Positions 223 through 7,754 of a DNA stretch of 7,754 nucleotides are shown here, piece by piece (positions within the stretch are counted from its first letter, which is position 1; the number at the start of each line of letters is the position of its first letter). Source of the DNA: Pelagibacteraceae bacterium TMED259 (GTDB taxonomy: Bacteria > Pseudomonadota > Alphaproteobacteria > HIMB59); the NCBI GenBank assembly GCA_002169365.1, contig NHLE01000001.1, positions 1 through 7,754 of the forward strand, read 5' to 3'. The position numbers and the translations under genes are program-made. Below the pieces are notes generated by a model that was not told the DNA's origin, searched no databases, and saw only the letters and a list, made by a program, of their open reading frames with translations.

Positions 223-244
223 AAATTTGATTCGAATCAAATTT
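223..244. repeat. Perfect 22-bp palindrome across the oxidase stop codon
   Basis: The left arm AAATTTGATTC is followed directly by its exact reverse complement GAATCAAATTT. The palindrome covers the last codons and the TGA stop (237-239) of the copper-oxidase gene and reaches into the 72-bp gap between the two convergent genes. As RNA it could fold into a 9-bp AT-rich stem with a TCGA loop on either strand. It could be a weak bidirectional terminator or a protein-binding site. There is no clear U-run directly after it, so a classical intrinsic terminator is not supported. Confidence 0.6.
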
Positions 245-3200
245 CTGCAAAGACAAGACTCCTCGCGGCTGCAATGGTTGATGTTCGCAGCCACCCATCA
301 AGCGATTGGCCATGGGAGAGACCCTCATCTAAATACTGCTTGATTGCTGCAAGTGGATTATCACGATACAAGGGGATAAGGTCCTGATTTGTTGCCATAT
401 AGACGCATGCAAGATCAATTGCACGATCGTAGTACGTGGATGCATCGGGAGAGTGAGTTTCTGCCCATACTTGTATGTTGGCAAGTGCCGCAGGATTCCC
501 TATTACCGCTGGATTGGTTTGGAGGTAGGTCAGAGCATCGACATTACCCCCGATAGTTCCCACAGTGATGTTCTGGTGTAGCGAGGAAGATATTTCTGAA
601 AGAGTTGTTTGCTGACTGGCGTCACTATCGGGTGTCGCAGAAAGAATCATAATGGCAAGCTGTGAATCTTCTCGGATAATGTCATGTTGAAAAGAAAACT
701 GCTGGCTCGTCGGGAATGAAATATCAGCTGAGTAGTGTGTCGTCATCGGCATTGATGTACTTGACATGGCAAGCGGATTGAAACGCGCCAGCTGAAGATT
801 CCGCATCGCATTTACAGAATCATTATGACTCAGCAGGGAGTTGTCGAGATTCATTAACCTGAACGTTTCATTAGGTCTAAAATTGCCGTCTCGATTTCCC
901 GTTCCAGCCGTGACATCCCAGCTGTTCCAGTACTCTTGAATTTTGTCAGCATTGGTTTCAAGAAAATGTTTGGATCCGATGGCAACACCAATATTCTCTG
1001 AAGACTTCATTGGCGCCTCAAGAACCATCTCAATCGCTACACGAATGTCTTCTTGGTCAGTCTCGGTACTTGTCAATTCGTTTATAAGGCCTGCAGTGAG
1101 TGGTAGTTCAAGATTCACGGCATGGAACGCGAGATCATGAATTGTGTTTTGCTCACCGGGGATAGAACTGTCTGCATCTGGCTGGATTGTGTTCAGGGAT
1201 GGTGAGAAAATTGGATTTTCGAACAAGGCAAGCGCACTGTTTGATGTCTTTGGAAGCGGCAGGTACTTGCTATTGAGTGGTTCGACGGAGTCATAGGTGT
1301 AGTTCGGGTAATACACTGCCTGAAGAACCTTGTTCGATGTGATCGTTTCCACGCCGGATCCGAGATACGTTGCATTGTTCCAGGTTGAATATGTTTGCAG
1401 GATTGGGTCGCCATTTGCATCAGGCTCCCAGAAGGTGAAGTTCCATCCAGCAATATCGAGGACACTTTCTTGCAAATATGCAGATGTCGGAAGTGTGTTG
1501 TATTCAGTCCATAACTTATCAACGTACCCATGATGCAGATAAAATATGGAATCACGACCAGCAGTCGGTACCCAACCAATGAGAGATGGTGCGATATTTG
1601 AGGATTCACCAAAAAATGTTGTTAGGTAGTTGGAGTCATCTATGATGCTCGTGATGGCACTTGGGTCTGTAGAATACTTGTCACTAATGAAGTTGTAGAC
1701 GTTTCCATAATTACCCTGTTCGATTGCATTTCTCAGAGTTTCTCCGGCATCAGATGGAATGGTGTTACTTTCCCAGAGCGTAGGGACGTTTTCAAGACGT
1801 GCGATGTCCACCATGTCAATCCAGTTTGAGATTCTTGGTAAAGCCGTGTCAGACATTCCACCGATGACATCATGAGCAACTGCGTGAGGCGAGAGTTCAG
1901 CTAGTGAGTTGAATTGAGTGAATAATGTCTGGGCTTGTTGAAGAGCGACACTCTGATTGAAGTATTGAGAGACACTGACTCCTGTTTGTGCATTGCCGGG
2001 TACAGGAACAATGCCAAGGTCGCCTTCAGGCATGTGTGTTTCACTCAGAGGTAGCCCCGCGTTTATATCGGCTCCGCGAATTTTTTCGTAGAGCGAGTTT
2101 GGGCGACCATTATGCATGGGTTCACGGAAACCTTGCGGGAGAGCACTGTTCTCAGGTGTACGGTAATCCCAATAGGGAAGCGCCCATGTTTCGACATCTG
2201 CGTCACTAAGCTCTGCAGCGAACGGAGAATTATTATCTGTTTTTTCATTGATGAGTACTTGCCGAATAACTTTTTCAAAAGCGGCGATATACAGTCGATG
2301 CCAAGCAATAAAAACAACACTAAAATTCTGCGTGGGAATAGTAGGATCGACACCTTGGGCTTGAGCCCACAACTTGACCCAGTGATTGCAGTTGTTGAGA
2401 ACAACTTTCCAGTCGCTGAAGGCTTCATCAGCTTCTGCGGTAGTCATGAATCCTTCGTCAATCATCCCTTGCTTCAGGCTGCTGAGGGTTGTCCAAAAGG
2501 TTCCATGGATACCAGCTTGGACATCCCAGCTATATGGGTTATCGGAAGGGAGGCCTTTCATGACATCAACGGCTATTCGGTAGAGATCAATAGCGTTTGC
2601 ACCCTCTGGCGTATGCGCACCATAACGAATGAAGTCAGGATTTCCGGTTTCAAGAGAGGAGTCTTGGAAATCTTGTACTAGATCTGAGAATGTGAGTAAT
2701 GATTGTGATGCGGTTGAAGAGTCGCCTTCTCCGTGCGTGTTTGACGCTGAAACGGTCAGTGTGTAATCACCTGACTGCAGATCTGCAAGCTCGATAGTCG
2801 TGCTGTCGGTTACGGTGATTTCTTGAGAAATGCCATTATCTGTTGATACGATGTAATGAGCGGTTGGGGCAGCAGAAGCGGTCTGAGACCAAGAGACGGT
2901 AAGTTCACCATCTGCATCGGAGTATGCCTTGAGGTTCTCTACGGCACCCGGTAACAAAGCTGGATCTGGCGCTACGCTCGGACTCCCGTCATCCCAGCCA
3001 ATAATTTCAAATGCTTTTTGCGTCACTCCATCTGTGGACTTTGGTAGCCAACGAATCTGGTCATCTTTTTGGATGATGCGATTTTGCAACAGTTGCAGGA
3101 GTTGTCTTGGGTTACTGGTAGTTGGCGGCGTAGATACATCATGCCATTGATCGGCTGCTGCGTCCCATTTCTCAACAGTTGAGCCGGCAACAACGCCAGT

Positions 3201-3443
3201 AATGACAAAACTCTTGGTGTCTTGTCCGACAAGTTCTGACTTGCCGAACACCACCGGGTCAACACCAACAAGGGATTTATCAATGTAGACTTCACAGACT
3301 GGTTCGAGCTGTGGCCTGATACCAGATGCATCTAGGGCGATACGTTGTTCCAAATGCTCTAGTGAGAGTGTCTTTGAACGCTTGTTCACACTACGATGGT
3401 TGGTGTTGGTAGAACGGTTGAACAGAGTATTAAGAAATCGCAT
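237..3443 (-). CDS. Secreted multidomain type-3 copper oxidase (tyrosinase/catechol oxidase class)
   Basis: The 1068-residue product is predicted to oxidise phenols or catechols with O2 at a di-copper site outside the cytoplasm. Order: basic leader with LEHLEQRIALDA (about 27-40), the module shared with the neighbouring protease (about 50-152), a fibronectin III-like domain (about 164-252), the tyrosinase domain (about 255-655), and about 410 residues I cannot assign. CuA ligands are likely H313, H354 and H382 (FIAWHRLY, then the family's ALPYWDYR). CuB ligands are H520 and H524 (HAVAH) and H637/H638 (FYLHHGYVDKLW). C352 sits two residues before H354, as in the Cys-His thioether of fungal enzymes. 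HisB1+1 is Ala, not the Asn typical of strong monophenolases, so catechol oxidase activity may dominate (inference). The ATG start fits the leader and a GGCGGGG 5 nt upstream. It is much longer than ordinary bacterial tyrosinases (roughly 300 residues). Substrate unknown. Confidence 0.9.
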   Translation of the reverse strand: MRFLNTLFNRSTNTNHRSVNKRSKTLSLEHLEQRIALDASGIRPQLEPVCEVYIDKSLVGVDPVVFGKSELVGQDTKSFVITGVVAGSTVEKWDAAADQWHDVSTPPTTSNPRQLLQLLQNRIIQKDDQIRWLPKSTDGVTQKAFEIIGWDDGSPSVAPDPALLPGAVENLKAYSDADGELTVSWSQTASAAPTAHYIVSTDNGISQEITVTDSTTIELADLQSGDYTLTVSASNTHGEGDSSTASQSLLTFSDLVQDFQDSSLETGNPDFIRYGAHTPEGANAIDLYRIAVDVMKGLPSDNPYSWDVQAGIHGTFWTTLSSLKQGMIDEGFMTTAEADEAFSDWKVVLNNCNHWVKLWAQAQGVDPTIPTQNFSVVFIAWHRLYIAAFEKVIRQVLINEKTDNNSPFAAELSDADVETWALPYWDYRTPENSALPQGFREPMHNGRPNSLYEKIRGADINAGLPLSETHMPEGDLGIVPVPGNAQTGVSVSQYFNQSVALQQAQTLFTQFNSLAELSPHAVAHDVIGGMSDTALPRISNWIDMVDIARLENVPTLWESNTIPSDAGETLRNAIEQGNYGNVYNFISDKYSTDPSAITSIIDDSNYLTTFFGESSNIAPSLIGWVPTAGRDSIFYLHHGYVDKLWTEYNTLPTSAYLQESVLDIAGWNFTFWEPDANGDPILQTYSTWNNATYLGSGVETITSNKVLQAVYYPNYTYDSVEPLNSKYLPLPKTSNSALALFENPIFSPSLNTIQPDADSSIPGEQNTIHDLAFHAVNLELPLTAGLINELTSTETDQEDIRVAIEMVLEAPMKSSENIGVAIGSKHFLETNADKIQEYWNSWDVTAGTGNRDGNFRPNETFRLMNLDNSLLSHNDSVNAMRNLQLARFNPLAMSSTSMPMTTHYSADISFPTSQQFSFQHDIIREDSQLAIMILSATPDSDASQQTTLSEISSSLHQNITVGTIGGNVDALTYLQTNPAVIGNPAALANIQVWAETHSPDASTYYDRAIDLACVYMATNQDLIPLYRDNPLAAIKQYLDEGLSHGQSLDGWLRTSTIAAARSLVFAEI
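240..1478 (-). other. Unassigned C-terminal extension of the copper oxidase
   Basis: Residues about 656-1068 follow the CuB site and match no domain I recognise. The region is acidic, holds only one Cys (C1013) and has no membrane segment or obvious anchor. Two parts differ in character: about 760-960 looks like mixed beta structure, and about 965-1068 is richer in Ala/Leu and probably helical. Many type-3 copper proteins carry a C-terminal domain that covers the active site until it is cleaved. A similar shielding role is possible here but rests only on position and size. Confidence 0.45.
1479..2681 (-). other. Tyrosinase catalytic domain (CuA and CuB sites)
   Basis: This is the part of the oxidase gene encoding residues about 255-655. 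CuA (H313, H354, H382) maps to 2298-2507 and CuB (H520, H524, H637/H638) to 1530-1886. The strongest family marks are AWHRLYIAAFE after the third CuA histidine region, LPYWDYR, and DSIFYLHHGYVDKLW. E516, four residues before HisB1, is placed like the 'waterkeeper' Glu of plant polyphenol oxidases, but its usual partner Asn is replaced by A521. HisB2+1 is D525. Confidence 0.85.
2688..2954 (-). other. Fibronectin type III-like domain
   Basis: Encodes residues about 164-252 of the copper oxidase. The pattern fits an FnIII fold: an opening PGAVENLKAYSDADGELTVSW, a central HYIVSTDNG strand, the late ELADLQSGDYTLTVSASN, then a GEGDSS loop. Such domains act as spacers or carbohydrate/protein-binding modules on exported bacterial enzymes. 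Here it separates the N-terminal shared module from the catalytic domain. Confidence 0.7.
2988..3296 (-). repeat. Shared ~100-residue module, copy in the copper oxidase N-terminus
   Basis: Residues about 50-152 of the oxidase align with the last ~105 residues of the subtilisin-like protein. The shared consensus is a TVEK turn, a Trp, DVSTPPTTSNPR, LLxLL, a DD-x-x-RW-x-P motif, then AF and GW. The core DVSTPPTTSNPR is encoded at 3105-3140 and agrees with the other copy (4976-5011) at 30 of 36 bases; all differences are synonymous. The spacing of W, LL, RW-P and GW recalls repeat domains of giant secreted proteins that carry 'RFVP' and 'AWD' motifs, so this may be a divergent beta-sandwich of that kind. 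Function unknown; docking or surface attachment is inferred. Confidence 0.8.
3324..3365 (-). other. LEPR-type leader motif
   Basis: Residues about 27-40 of the oxidase read SLEHLEQRIALDAS, after a basic stretch containing NKRSK. It resembles the LEPR-x-LL signature found near the N-terminus of large exported planctomycete proteins, here with LEQR-x-AL. There is no classical hydrophobic signal-peptide core in the first 45 residues, so this motif is the likely export or sorting signal. Confidence 0.65.
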
Positions 3444-3448
3444 GAGTG

Positions 3449-3456
3449 CCCCGCCT
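3449..3456 (-). promoter_or_regulatory. Possible ribosome binding site of the copper oxidase
   Basis: On the coding strand AGGCGGGG lies 5 nt before the ATG at 3443-3441. It is purine-rich but not a close match to AGGAGG, and many planctomycete genes lack a clear Shine-Dalgarno sequence. It supports this ATG over an in-frame TTG eight codons upstream (3465-3467). Confidence 0.35.
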
Positions 3457-3604
3457 GAGTTCCCAAAGAGTTACCTTTAAAGATACCTTTGTTTTTCAGG
3501 GGACGCCAGAAATTATTGAGCGTAGGAAATGTGCGTTAGTTCACATGAAGTTTGCCTACCAGGGTGCCAGTTGAGGCATTCTTCCACACATGTCCCGCAC
3601 AAAT

Positions 3605-3638: not shown

Positions 3639-4706
3639 TTACCCGCCTTTTTCGCTAAGCGCTTCTTTCATTTCGTTCCGGGTGAGCTTTTGATCACCAT
3701 TCTTGTCCCATTGGTTGAATTGTCGAAACACAAGGGAACGTGGATTATTTACTTCTTCTCGTGTGAGAGTTCCATCACGATTTAAATCAAATCGTAATAA
3801 TATCTGTGGGACAATTTCTGGCCCCAATGTATTTCGTTTTATATTGATTCGTTGGTGTTCTGAGATGATTTTGTATTCATCTTTCGTGATGGTGTCATTT
3901 GACGATCGAGAAGCCTTGCGAAAAAACTCACGAGTAAAATCACGAAATTCAGGAGCAGAATCTTCAATGCGAAGGATCCCACTTCCAGTTGAATCAAGAA
4001 TCTGAAATACATCAGTTGGACTTCCTTGAGGTCCTCGTATTCTTTGTGGCTGAAATGGCCTGCCTTGCGCAGCATATGTGCGAGCAATCGTGGCTTGTGA
4101 ATCGGTTATAGGTTTGATGCGAGTCGGTATTCGGCCAGGTCCAGCACCCATCATCAAATTATTATTTTTTTCAAAAATAGTGTGTGGTAAACCAAGAGCG
4201 TGGCCTAACTCGTGTGCAAGCACAGCAGGTGTCTGCAGTCCTTTAGGACCCCGCGTTGCAAAATAGACAACGCCATCAGGCTTTGGGATAAAAACCCCAC
4301 CAATTGTTTTTTCAAAGTCCTCCGCGAGTACAACATTAAACCCGTTGGCAAGTAGATTCTCGCGCTTGGTGTTGGCAATCAGAGCGGGTGCTATCTTTTC
4401 ACGATGCTGGGAAAGAGCGAGAGCAAACGCTTCGGGCACCTGTGGTGTCATGTTCTGGATCGATTCAATGTCCCAGATGATTGAAGCCTGTTTCCATGTT
4501 TCATTTACTGCTTTCATTTGCTCTCGTATGTCGTCATCACTCATCGAACAGTTGAGTCGGGGTTCGGTTGCAGTGCGAAAGCGATGAATACGAACAGGAA
4601 GAGTAATGGATTCATTATCAGCAGAGGCTGAGATGAGTTCCCGTGCCTGCAAAAATAACACTGCCAAACAGATCAAAAGGGAAGATAAAGAAAACGGAGT
4701 TGCCAT
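3639..4706 (-). CDS. Secreted metzincin metalloprotease with C-terminal EF-hand-like loops
   Basis: The 355-residue product is a predicted zinc endopeptidase exported by Sec. Residues 1-29 form a signal peptide (hydrophobic core SLLICLAVLFL, likely cleavage after SASA). The catalytic domain runs from about 35 to 215. Its HELGHALGLPH motif at 165-175 gives zinc ligands H165, H169 and H175 with catalytic E166, and NNNLMMG (about 181-187) supplies the probable Met-turn. Residues about 236-350 hold four EF-hand-like loops: degenerate at 238 (DSTGSGILRIED) and 266, canonical at 307 (DLNRDGTLTREE), and near-canonical at 334 (DKNGDQKLTRNE, Gln in place of Gly at loop position 6). Calcium may stabilise or switch the enzyme (inference). 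It follows the subtilisin-like gene by 104 bp and precedes the oxidase by 195 bp. An AGG lies 8 nt before the ATG. The exact metzincin family (matrixin, pappalysin-like or other) is unsettled, and the substrate is unknown. Confidence 0.9.
   Translation of the reverse strand: MATPFSLSSLLICLAVLFLQARELISASADNESITLPVRIHRFRTATEPRLNCSMSDDDIREQMKAVNETWKQASIIWDIESIQNMTPQVPEAFALALSQHREKIAPALIANTKRENLLANGFNVVLAEDFEKTIGGVFIPKPDGVVYFATRGPKGLQTPAVLAHELGHALGLPHTIFEKNNNLMMGAGPGRIPTRIKPITDSQATIARTYAAQGRPFQPQRIRGPQGSPTDVFQILDSTGSGILRIEDSAPEFRDFTREFFRKASRSSNDTITKDEYKIISEHQRINIKRNTLGPEIVPQILLRFDLNRDGTLTREEVNNPRSLVFRQFNQWDKNGDQKLTRNEMKEALSEKGG
3657..4001 (-). other. Four EF-hand-like calcium loops
   Basis: Encodes residues about 236-350 of the metalloprotease. 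Loop starts at residues 238, 266, 307 and 334 form two pairs spaced 28 and 27 residues, shorter than the roughly 36 of calmodulin-type pairs. Loops 3 and 4 keep Asp/Asn at positions 1, 3 and 5 and Glu at 12. Loops 1 and 2 have lost several ligands, so probably only the last pair binds calcium. Confidence 0.75.
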
Positions 4707-4810: not shown

Positions 4811-7754
4811 TTACTGCATCTCAAAGCGAATAGAGCTTTTTGATTCGGATACTAATTTGCCATTCCATCCAACGAGTGAGAATGCTTCTTCTGCTTGTGG
4901 TGATTCGGCTGGCGGTATCCACCGCAGTTCATCATCTGGCTTAACTACTCTTAATGAAAGTAATCGAAGTAATTCACGTGGATTACTGGTTGTTGGAGGC
5001 GTAGAGACATCAACCCATGTATCTCCAGACTTCTTTTCAACGGTTCCACGTACAGAATCGACGACGAATCGAATGCCAGATACTGATGGAAGCAGTGACG
5101 TAGCAAGATTATTCCATGAAAATACAAATGGGTTTGGCCCCGGAACGCTGTTATCAACAATGATTTTTGTCGAGGGAAGCAGTTCTGGTCGTTCAACACG
5201 AGGTAGAGAAATTCCAATGTTGACAGTTGGTTTGAGATTTCTTCTTCCGATTGCAGTTTTATTATTGGTTGTTATGAATTGGTTATCAGGTAGTTCAACC
5301 ATTGGGGTATATGCACCGACGGCTGATGAAAATGAAAGATGTGAACCAGGAAATTCATATGTTCCTTGAGCATCAGTCACAACCTGAGGCTCTTCTGTTG
5401 TGAGTGTTAAGGACCAGTTGTCGAGCATATAACTATGGTTTGGATCAGCATTCATGACCTCGAGAGACCAGGATCCATTGGCCGGGGTGTGCTTAAACGC
5501 CGCAAGGTTTGCCAATGACATATGGTCAGCTGAAGAGGTTTCCATCAAGATGGTTTGACTACTTCCAAACACGGTTGTTGAATCTTGATGGGAAAAGTTG
5601 CCCGGACTATTAAATGCTTGTCCTACGAGCTTTGTACCAGTGATCGGCACCCGGATGCCAAGCGGGCTTATGAGTGTCAGAAAGACTCGGTCTTGTCCTG
5701 ACGGATCGCCGCCTTGGGGTGCATGTATGGTGTAGCTCAGTTCCAAATCTGTAATTGTGCCAGCCATGTTCGCAAATGTAATGACGGACCCAGCCTTTGC
5801 TGGCCAAATCAGCTCGTTTTCATACGTTATGTTTTCGGGAGTAAAGTACCGAGCAGCCGAATGAATGGTGAGTGGCTGAACATTTGGTTCTGTCAAAGTT
5901 TGCTCGGATTCACGAATGCCGTTGCCGTTACTATCAAGAAAGACAGGCATGCCCTCAAGAGGTCGGTCACCCTGGTCTTGGATTCCATTCCTGCCAAAGT
6001 CTTCAAAGACCTTCCCTTGTATGGAAATGTCTGCAATACGGGCAGCTGCCTCCTTGGCCCGAATGAGCCCTACACCAGTCGGATAGTTGAAATGTTCAGG
6101 GTCACCAACTGGCGGAAGCGTTGGCGGATCTATTGTTGGCTGATCATCTCTATCAATCGGCAGTGGCAATGCAGAGGCGGCAAGGTGCTCGTAGATTTCT
6201 GCAGGAGTCAGTTTCTCATTGAGCTCAAGCAGTAGTGCAGCAACAGCTCCAACATTGGGTGTCGCAGCAGACGTACCCGAGAAGTTTTTTAATGTATCCT
6301 TATCTGGGTCACCAGACCCAAAAAAACTTGTGTCGCCGTTCTGGGGTGCGATGAACCGTGGTTGTGGCCGATATTCAGGTTCCTGCCTTTGGCCATCGGA
6401 ATCGAAAAAAATTGGTGTCCCACCAAAGGAACTGAAGTCAGACAGCACAGATTCCCAATCCGAAGAATTCGCCTGATACGCAGGGGTACTCCAGTATTGT
6501 GCTGCCCCAACGTTTGCAGCAAGTTTCGAATTATTATGTCCCCATACTGTGCTGGACCCATGCTCTGCATATTCAATGAAACTGGTTTGAGGAAAATCTT
6601 CTCCAACTGGAGGCTGGCTGCCGTCAAATACCGTAATCCACTTAAAAAATGTGGGCAATTCTTGACCCCCACCACCATCATAGCCATGAGTGTTATGAAC
6701 AAACGCTACATAAAAAGTATTTGGAAGTGCTTCTAAGACTTGCGTTCCGCCTTGCTGCATTCCACTTAGAGGATAGAGAGACATTGGATAGTCGGGATCG
6801 CCGATAGCTTTCCCGAAGTACACTCGTTCTCCATTTTCTTCAGTAAAGAACCAAACCTCATTTGCACTGTTGTTGTGTTTTGCACTGTTGTTGTGTTTCC
6901 AAGGTTGATCCCACTGCACAAAAAAGTTGTTTTTATTAAATGCGCCTGGAAAATACACCTCCTGCATAATATCAATGTTTTCTGCATCAGGATCAAAGTC
7001 ATGATAAAGATACTGCTCTGTATTACCTGGAACTGATGATGGAAGTTGAGAGCTGATTTCCGGGTAGGGTGTGCCACGAAAAGTCGATTGGTAACTTGTA
7101 TTAGTATCATTTCCAGCGGCGCTGAAATACGCTACCGCTTTGTTTCCGTCTTTTCCTTCAACAGCCCAGTCAACAGCCTGAGCGATAATACCGTCCTGGA
7201 ACCATGGCACAATGGGGTCGTATAAGTCGTCGACGATGATATTTACTTTGATATCGTCGACCAATTTCTTGATTACGCTGACGTATCTTTCTGCCCACTC
7301 GTTTGCATGATCTATCGCCATACTTGGACTTGTCGGATCACCAAAATCTGTTACAGGATTAGGAGTGGCAAAGTAGATCTCTGCATCGGGGGCAATCGCA
7401 TGGACCAACTGTGCCATCCCGCGTCCCTCGTCATCTTTATAATCTACGTCGTTACAAATATATGAATAGCCTCTGCTATCCGTCCCCTTCATGTCAGGAA
7501 GTACACCGAGCGCAATGTCCTCATCCATGCCACCTAACGCATTAAAGCTGGTGGAGATAACTCCAATCTTCATGCCTTTTCCAGTTACGTCATAGCGTGC
7601 CCTCACAACATCAGCGAGCATGGCGACGTCAGCCTGATTCAGATTGCTACTCGAATAGCCGCTCCCGATTGTATAAGGACGTTGAGATCCGTCTGTTAAC
7701 CCATCGTAGGTCACACTCCAGCTTTCAACTGGATCCTGAAGGCCGTTGGCTGAC
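4811..7754 (-). CDS. Subtilisin-fold (S8-like) protease with SdrD-B, P-type and shared C-terminal modules; 5' end outside window
   Basis: The frame stays open to the window edge (13 more codons, starting SANGLQD, precede the GTG at 7714-7712), so the true start lies outside. Numbering below counts that GTG as residue 1. Residues about 45-560 form a subtilisin-fold domain: GKGMKIGVISTSFN at the usual Asp strand, DEGRGM then AIAPDAEIYFA at the usual His helix, AAGN (oxyanion N202), and FSGTSAATP (Ser S482). A beta-rich insertion of about 150 residues (235-385) separates Asn and Ser. Next comes an SdrD-B-like domain (564-608 and 775-835) interrupted by a P-type domain (609-774), then the shared module (848-951) and a short end. 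The likely role is extracellular proteolysis, but Glu occupies the His position and no Asp is at the Asp motif, so the mechanism is uncertain. First of three co-oriented genes. Confidence 0.88.
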   Translation of the reverse strand, partial: SANGLQDPVESWSVTYDGLTDGSQRPYTIGSGYSSSNLNQADVAMLADVVRARYDVTGKGMKIGVISTSFNALGGMDEDIALGVLPDMKGTDSRGYSYICNDVDYKDDEGRGMAQLVHAIAPDAEIYFATPNPVTDFGDPTSPSMAIDHANEWAERYVSVIKKLVDDIKVNIIVDDLYDPIVPWFQDGIIAQAVDWAVEGKDGNKAVAYFSAAGNDTNTSYQSTFRGTPYPEISSQLPSSVPGNTEQYLYHDFDPDAENIDIMQEVYFPGAFNKNNFFVQWDQPWKHNNSAKHNNSANEVWFFTEENGERVYFGKAIGDPDYPMSLYPLSGMQQGGTQVLEALPNTFYVAFVHNTHGYDGGGGQELPTFFKWITVFDGSQPPVGEDFPQTSFIEYAEHGSSTVWGHNNSKLAANVGAAQYWSTPAYQANSSDWESVLSDFSSFGGTPIFFDSDGQRQEPEYRPQPRFIAPQNGDTSFFGSGDPDKDTLKNFSGTSAATPNVGAVAALLLELNEKLTPAEIYEHLAASALPLPIDRDDQPTIDPPTLPPVGDPEHFNYPTGVGLIRAKEAAARIADISIQGKVFEDFGRNGIQDQGDRPLEGMPVFLDSNGNGIRESEQTLTEPNVQPLTIHSAARYFTPENITYENELIWPAKAGSVITFANMAGTITDLELSYTIHAPQGGDPSGQDRVFLTLISPLGIRVPITGTKLVGQAFNSPGNFSHQDSTTVFGSSQTILMETSSADHMSLANLAAFKHTPANGSWSLEVMNADPNHSYMLDNWSLTLTTEEPQVVTDAQGTYEFPGSHLSFSSAVGAYTPMVELPDNQFITTNNKTAIGRRNLKPTVNIGISLPRVERPELLPSTKIIVDNSVPGPNPFVFSWNNLATSLLPSVSGIRFVVDSVRGTVEKKSGDTWVDVSTPPTTSNPRELLRLLSLRVVKPDDELRWIPPAESPQAEEAFSLVGWNGKLVSESKSSIRFEMQ
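4862..5173 (-). repeat. Shared ~100-residue module, copy at the C-terminus of the subtilisin-like protein
   Basis: Residues about 848-951 mirror the N-terminal module of the copper oxidase: RGTVEK, W, DVSTPPTTSNPR (4976-5011), LLRLL, DDELRWIP, AFSLVGW. Only about 16 residues follow, so the module ends this protein while it begins the oxidase. The opposite placement suggests a self-contained fold that can be added at either end. Confidence 0.8.
5210..6025 (-). other. SdrD-B-like domain split by the P-type domain
   Basis: The first half (about 564-608, 5891-6025) reads GKVFEDFGRNGIQDQGDRP, then LEGMPVFLDSNGNGI, as in SdrD-B repeats. The expected continuation, TDAQGTYEF and later a T...NIGIS ending, appears only at about 779-835 (5210-5380). 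The P-type domain lies between the two halves, at the loop after the second calcium-binding-like segment. Confidence 0.7.
5393..5890 (-). other. P-type (proprotein convertase-like) domain
   Basis: Encodes residues about 609-774. Family-like marks, in order: GTITDLELSYTI, DRVFLTLISPLGIRVPI, a FNSPGNF..DST stretch, LANLAAF, NGSWSLEVMNAD and LDNWSLTL. P domains are beta-sandwiches that often follow bacterial and eukaryotic subtilisin-type catalytic domains and support folding or substrate binding. Confidence 0.75.
6861..6898. repeat. 18-bp perfect tandem duplication
   Basis: The unit TTTGCACTGTTGTTGTGT is present twice (6861-6878, 6879-6896), with two further matching bases. It duplicates six residues in frame (KHNNSA-KHNNSA, residues 273-284) within the beta-rich insertion of the subtilisin-like protein. 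The lack of any divergence points to a recent replication-slippage event. Confidence 0.95.

Follow-up and report, generated by a model that had tools for sequence, protein, structure and literature searches.

A module shared by a tyrosinase and a subtilase-like protein, probably a divergent Ig/cadherin-like offshoot in putatively exported planctomycete proteins

Two neighbouring genes of a planctomycete bacterium on a 7,754-nucleotide stretch of DNA (contig NHLE01000001.1 of assembly GCA_002169365.1, listed as Pelagibacteraceae bacterium TMED259; hereafter the window), one encoding a tyrosinase and the other a subtilase-like protein, carry the same module of ~110 residues, which sequence comparison confirmed as a real shared building block. 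From its homologies, its placement, the many architectures that bear it and the mosaic make-up of the tyrosinase, all of which were observed directly, we infer that the module derives from immunoglobulin (Ig)/cadherin-like repeats as a lineage-specific offshoot, mostly terminal and present once per protein, and that it serves as a folded stalk or cap at the surface (probability about 0.55). The carrier would be exported by the planctomycete LExLExR route, and the module, mostly together with a fibronectin type III (fn3) domain, would form an envelope-side spacer keeping the passenger (a tyrosinase, pentapeptide array, lipocalin or propeller) off the surface. In the subtilases the same fold would cap the free C terminus; a conserved patch of the module may also dock to a shared partner, which is a guess. 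A stalk or cap would be the default function and docking the bolder one. Planctomycetes encode many proteins of unassigned place and role, and a lineage-specific domain borne by as many as nine proteins in one genome, mostly terminal and mostly accompanied by an export-type motif, would help to single out those displayed on the surface.

Two module copies and their spread among carriers

By BLASTP, 47 of 114 residues were identical between the two copies (41%, 72.8 bits, E 1e-22, in a single comparison), bearing out the claim of the initial annotation that one module is common to both proteins; both copies lay where it had placed them, each starting ~20 bases further out than given (Table 1). 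What it had called a copper oxidase proved to be a tyrosinase (PF00264, E 3e-17), with an fn3 domain (PF00041) after the module. A 12-residue core, DVSTPPTTSNPR, was described as identical in both copies with six silent differences in 36 bp, and codon comparison confirmed this: the six bases are spread over five codons and all are silent. Across the 110 aligned codons the proportion of differing silent sites (pS) was 0.78, that is, saturated, and nonsynonymous divergence (dN) was 0.64. The core codons alone gave pS 0.51 and a proportion of differing nonsynonymous sites (pN) of 0.04, where the lone "nonsynonymous" step is the path average of AGA/CGT and the residues themselves are identical. 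Since silent sites are saturated and the core amino acids identical, the copies are old paralogues under protein-level selection; as first argued, the core is kept by selection on the protein and is not a fresh duplicate. Recent transfer of one module into the other gene is ruled out by the saturated silent sites. In Pfam and NCBIfam scans no model covered either module stretch, the only match being Wza_C at chance level (E 0.21).

Of the 72 genomes in the same family as G003, the genome at the centre of the search, 31 matched a two-sequence profile at E<=0.01; the best match was strong (E below 1e-15) in 15 of them and weak in the other 16. G068 held nine strong matches and G022 ten, two of them weak, and no stop codon lay inside any match listed from this search. 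At E<=1e-6, the A2 search matched one of 294 genomes drawn from the phylum, namely G003 itself, and 25 of 296 drawn from the order, all 25 already in the family search, although for most genomes 15 first-look candidates were scored each and weak copies may be missed. In the samples examined, the module thus appears limited to one family of planctomycete genomes. A contig scan recovered four loci, in Planctomycetota, Pirellulales and Planctomycetaceae records. When the tyrosinase module was searched against a large protein collection, 26 proteins of comparable length were found (4 with PF00264 and 22 with pentapeptide repeats), all 26 with fn3 listed, and the subtilase module found 31 proteins in the same collection, 30 with PF00082 and one with a beta-helix.

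The 56 stretches fetched contained 50 open reading frames (ORFs) with a strong module (independent E-value, i-E<1e-20), which include some near-copies from different genomes (e.g., L053/L054) and several cut by contig ends. Classing a module as N-terminal when it starts before residue 260 and as C-terminal when fewer than 40 residues follow it, 37 were N-terminal, 8 C-terminal and 5 between. Each of these ORFs bore one strong stretch, never in tandem. The module had first been taken as the mark of two enzymes in one cluster, a view that the 50 ORFs and their many architectures do not uphold. We scanned 40 proteins against Pfam (26 N-class, 7 C-class, 4 mid-chain and the weak-class L092, L093 and L098). 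N-class passengers were tyrosinase, pentapeptide repeats, lipocalin, multicopper oxidase with DUF4114, NHL-like and DUF5122 propellers, LamG, cupin, phosphoesterase, DOMON and a weak beta-helix, and several proteins had fn3 alone. fn3 was found at E<=0.01 in 21 of the 26 N-class proteins (3 below the Pfam cut-off), and in 18 of these 21 its best stretch started 13-16 residues past the last matched module residue. Four of the seven C-class proteins combined a subtilase with a P-domain, one had a cadherin, and two had no family (one with a sub-threshold match). The mid-chain modules of L062, L063, L066 and L083 are followed by 276-316 residues, and these whole proteins have no Pfam family over cut-off. 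In P0012, for which pentapeptide and fn3 models are listed, two more repeat-like stretches stand between export motif and module. Weaker second stretches matching the module profile occur after fn3 in L078:1584-5255 and L076:1404-3644; they are of a VELMASHLLG... type also seen in family genomes (L030-L032, L034, L036, L037) and represent a branch sister to the module.

The carriers also share an export-type motif. An LExLExR-type planctomycete export motif is described in a passage of PMC8567305. By eye and by pattern, an RRLxxExLExRxLLA-type motif was seen in the window tyrosinase (LEHLEQRIALDA) and in the subtilase orthologue L043 (ERLEPRHYLSAD); the Pfam PF07595 model had no match in the window proteins, the N terminus of the window subtilase lying beyond the window. 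An LExR/K-type motif was present in 44 of the 50 strong carriers (a strict pattern found 27, a relaxed pattern added 13 and inspection by eye another 4), and the other six comprised four ORFs open at the 5' end, the cut form L055, and L088, which had none. Matches to PF07595, all below its cut-off, came from two carriers (L061, L062) and two repeat proteins (L096, L097). Among the N-class ORFs measured, the motif ended 4-11 residues ahead of the module, except in L087 (40), and in 8/8 C-class carriers a tail of 14-19 residues followed the module. Such regular spacing would suit a signal domain for sorting or maturation that, like C-terminal sorting domains, is recognized by the secretion machinery and maybe processed. 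We consider this unlikely, given that the module stands at either end and mid-chain, while known sorting domains are one-ended, and that an N-terminal export-type motif is already present in most carriers.

Relation to Big_9 and Cadherin_5 repeats

The initial annotation had hinted, from RW-x-P and GW spacing, at a likeness to repeats in giant proteins, and profile searches substantiate it. With hhalign, the module aligned to such repeats at 97% (E 6.4e-11) and the repeats to Cadherin_5 (PF17892) at 90% (E 1.4e-6), whereas the module compared directly with Cadherin_5 gave nothing (E 0.52), and a Pfam scan of the module copies returned no Big_9 (PF17963) or Cadherin_5 match at E<=10. In controls of forty column shuffles and one reversal per pair, none rose above 0.5%. 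Weak matches of the module profile in the family genomes form a gradient of RWxP...AWD sequences, which occur in giant proteins as well as in ordinary ones. One of these repeats, L096 651-748, is itself Big_9 above the Pfam cut-off; searched alone against 3854 ORFs, it found 18 strong module ORFs (sequence E 3e-9 to 7e-4, lenient values, as this database was collected by module matches), with the best stretch always on the module and, in five, over its last 31-35 residues only (stretch E 9e-8 to 0.07). Iterated searching merged the repeat and module sets.

Ten weak-class stretches were scanned against Pfam. Big_9 was found in five, each time over cut-off, and Cadherin_5 (E<=0.03) also in five, each time below cut-off when the stretch was scanned alone; three stretches had both models and three neither (L096:1036-1362, L098, L092). 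In the whole protein L096, Cadherin_5 was over cut-off, with a stretch across one RWxP...AWD repeat. The bridging repeat is widespread: a search at E<=0.01 found it in 91 proteins, and PF17963 and PF17892 are listed for many of them; named sources are Planctomycetes, Proteobacteria, Verrucomicrobia, Bdellovibrionota and Chlorobium. At E<=1e-3, the module profile matched 37 of these 91 proteins with HMMER filters and 55 without (34 and 38, respectively, as single stretches), and 0/91 reversed sequences. The bridging repeat comes from L096 and L097, giant proteins in which DUF4347 and MBG domains are combined with many RCC1 repeats and with cadherin-like repeats. Likeness of the module to Kelch, primase or P-domain was at chance level only, and for PAD2 we make no claim of family. 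On these profile comparisons, the module is best read as a divergent, lineage-specific offshoot of Ig/cadherin-like repeats, reached stepwise via intermediates. It had been called undescribed, which holds in that it has no Pfam or NCBIfam model of its own but not in that stepwise homology leads to Big_9/Cadherin_5; its merging with this ubiquitous domain, the outcome that the initial annotation had named as refuting its view, runs through the repeats, half of the ten stretches being over the Big_9 cut-off, with no direct step.

We modelled module copy 1 with AlphaFold2 (AF2; predicted local distance difference test, pLDDT, 85; predicted template modelling score, pTM, 0.77) and one giant-protein repeat. 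The order of strands is the same in both models, and the module end RWxP...AF..xGWDDG lines up with YTP...G.DSF.Y.V.DG of Big_9/Cadherin_5 repeats. Before the RWxP strand sits a helical insert, TPPTTSNPRELLRLL, to which the modelled repeat has no equivalent helix; this insert and the single-copy, mostly terminal placement distinguish the module from generic repeats. Seven residues (G, K, W, R, D, W and F, including K55, W63, R85, D91 and W95) are invariant across 46 modules. These invariant residues and an insertion not found in aligned generic repeats could also belong to a docking domain that binds one shared envelope partner (a surface polysaccharide, an S-layer-like protein or a scaffold) and so gathers unrelated proteins, in keeping with the number of strong copies on unrelated passengers in G068, the near-constant terminal places and the mosaic of export end and module. 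We regard docking as possible but somewhat doubtful: some of the invariant residues (W in RWxP, F in AF, G) may serve core packing, the carriers are already united by the export-type motif alone, and no conserved cluster was seen.

Mosaic structure of the tyrosinase gene

At its 5' end, the window tyrosinase gene resembles pentapeptide-repeat genes. By blastn, the cassette of export motif and module was 83% identical to the pentapeptide gene L044 over 2986-3443 and 78% to L045 over 2986-3513. In 60-base bins, identity to L044/L045 was 67-93% from the start codon to ~+480 and ~22-52% beyond, and identity to the tyrosinases L049 and L051 was 45-70% before the switch, which falls near +456, and mostly 65-80% after it. 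The tyrosinase bodies of L048, L049 and L051 are orthologous to that of the window (70-82% identity). Against the pentapeptide protein P0003, the window tyrosinase was 82% identical in the export end, 88% in the module and 24% in fn3; against the tyrosinase P0025 it was 61% identical in the module, 80% in fn3 and 88% in the body, and against L051 and L049 59% in the module and 82% and 81% in the body. An assembly chimaera is unlikely, as P0001 and P0002 share the arrangement of the window tyrosinase; P0001 stands for 168 member sequences clustered at 90% identity, of which the representative alone was compared.

A tree of body and fn3, in which the five inner branches were all well supported, joined P0025 and the window group as sisters (97/97). 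The module tree, of 36 rows, paired P0025 with the pentapeptide protein P0026 (100/100) and set the window group on the side of the pentapeptide modules, where backbone support was weak (78/86). A single clade of all 8 tyrosinase modules was rejected (approximately unbiased test, p-AU 6.75e-5). Among follow-up topology groups, chosen after the tree was seen, P0025 with the window group (p 5e-4) and P0025 with the four other tyrosinases (p 0.003) were rejected; a clade uniting those four and the window group was not (p 0.27). An exchange of the module, apparently along with the export signal, between P0025 and P0026, in either direction, is therefore well supported by the trees. For the window tyrosinase, an exchange in either direction is the plain reading of the identity mosaic: its module stands much nearer to pentapeptide modules from other genomes than to those of tyrosinases, which runs counter to the way the bodies are ordered. 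By itself, the module tree is not decisive in this case. The export motif and module seem to travel together as a 5' cassette between tyrosinase and pentapeptide genes. Two tree-proven exchanges are thus not claimed, the window group and the four other tyrosinases not being excluded as a clade.

A more speculative reading, which we think rather improbable, is that export motif and module form a mobile 5' cassette, repeatedly recombined among unrelated genes, with the module a docking domain that arose from a cadherin-like repeat by helix insertion. Were this so, breakpoints near the start codon and just past the module would make any passenger pluggable into one surface-display and docking system, and cassette swapping would show how the surface set is built, the display end being exchanged while passengers diverge; that the module tree does not force the window exchange weakens it. 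The same breakpoints would be expected if the module had no function of its own and hitchhiked beside the export signal in a recombining cassette by neutral shuffling. This is highly improbable in view of protein-level constraint, in the core codons as in the seven invariant residues, of C-terminal copies that do not adjoin the signal, and of listed matches free of internal stops. Among the papers listed in literature searches, titles and abstract openings showed nothing on the module or on such a cassette swap. The surface stalk or cap remains the reading we prefer.

Neighbouring genes and known systems

Between the two carriers lies a gene for a matrixin-like metalloprotease, in which no module copy was found (Table 1). 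L004/L043 carry a metalloprotease 90% identical to it, and in G003 it adjoins the subtilase; the pair is retained there (85% at the DNA level) with different genes after it, and the G003 tyrosinase lies on another contig. At three other tyrosinase loci, no orthologous subtilase was found within the 6.3-12.3 kb fetched, more distant linkage being possible. No conserved enzyme cluster was seen in these arrangements, and a functional cluster of tyrosinase and subtilase is not supported. The neighbourhood was not seen elsewhere, and therefore the shared module does not indicate that the two enzymes act together, a warning that a module common to neighbouring genes need not signal a functional cluster.

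Table 1. Features of the window, with positions counted from its first letter.
Feature	Position	Strand	Description	Basis
Tyrosinase gene	237..3443	minus	1068 aa; LExLEQR motif, module, fn3 and tyrosinase domain in order	PF00264 E 3.1e-17, PF00041 E 6.1e-6
5' cassette (export motif + module)	2986..3443	minus	closer to pentapeptide-repeat genes than to other tyrosinases	
LEHLEQRIALDA motif	3327..3362	minus	tyrosinase residues 28-39; resembles Planc_extracel (PF07595) N-terminal export motif	read from sequence
Module copy 1	2988..3317	minus	tyrosinase residues 43-152	BLASTP to copy 2
Core DVSTPPTTSNPR of copy 1	3105..3140	minus		
Helix of module-specific insertion, PRQLLQLLQN	3081..3110	minus	H75-84	DSSP on copy 1 model
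fn3	2703..2945	minus	C-terminal to tyrosinase module	PF00041 26.8 bits, cut-off 25
Matrixin-like metalloprotease + EF hands	3639..4706	minus		EF-hand models; PF00413 E 4.4e-5, slightly below cut-off
Subtilase-like gene	4811..7753	minus	980 residues visible, 5' end beyond window edge	PF00082 E 5.6e-10
Module copy 2	4859..5191	minus	C-terminal in subtilase-like ORF, then 15-residue tail (4814-4858)	
Core DVSTPPTTSNPR of copy 2	4976..5011	minus		

The window subtilase also matched SdrD_B and P_proprotein, both below cut-off (a weak P-domain), and Pfam S8 covers its Ser half only. Positions 7541-7564, in its N-terminal part, encode GVISTSFN, where the relative L061 has GVISDSFN, whose Asp we take to be the subtilase catalytic Asp; this Asp is likewise absent from L043 (GIISTSFN) and L060 (GVLSVSYN). 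The usual catalytic Asp may thus be missing, and the window subtilase is possibly a non-canonical or inactive enzyme. At the left end of the window, positions 3-164 of the plus strand carry the tail of a reading frame that runs toward the tyrosinase gene (...EELPPPASVDEKNLQKDGVSEFK, with its stop at 162-164).

Several known systems resemble the module in part. Type IX secretion type A domains are C-terminal sorting domains. PEP-CTERM is likewise treated as a C-terminal sorting domain in a passage of PMC1569441. The C-class module, like both, ends 14-19 residues from the stop; unlike them, the module is also N-terminal and mid-chain, and no sorting model was among the window matches. Most module carriers show an LExR/K-type motif like that of Planc_extracel, in the N-class shortly before the module, and Planc_extracel is a short motif distinct from the module. 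The fn3 domains of secreted bacterial enzymes are accessory beta-sandwiches beside a catalytic domain, as the module probably is, but they belong to a different family, one that stands next to the module within the same proteins. The closest relatives are Big_9 (Bacterial Ig domain) and Cadherin_5, in which tandem repetition is usual though not obligatory and with which the module is profile-continuous through the RWxP...AWD repeats; the module differs from them in having no Pfam match, one strong copy per ORF, a helical insertion and its own invariant K, W, R and D.

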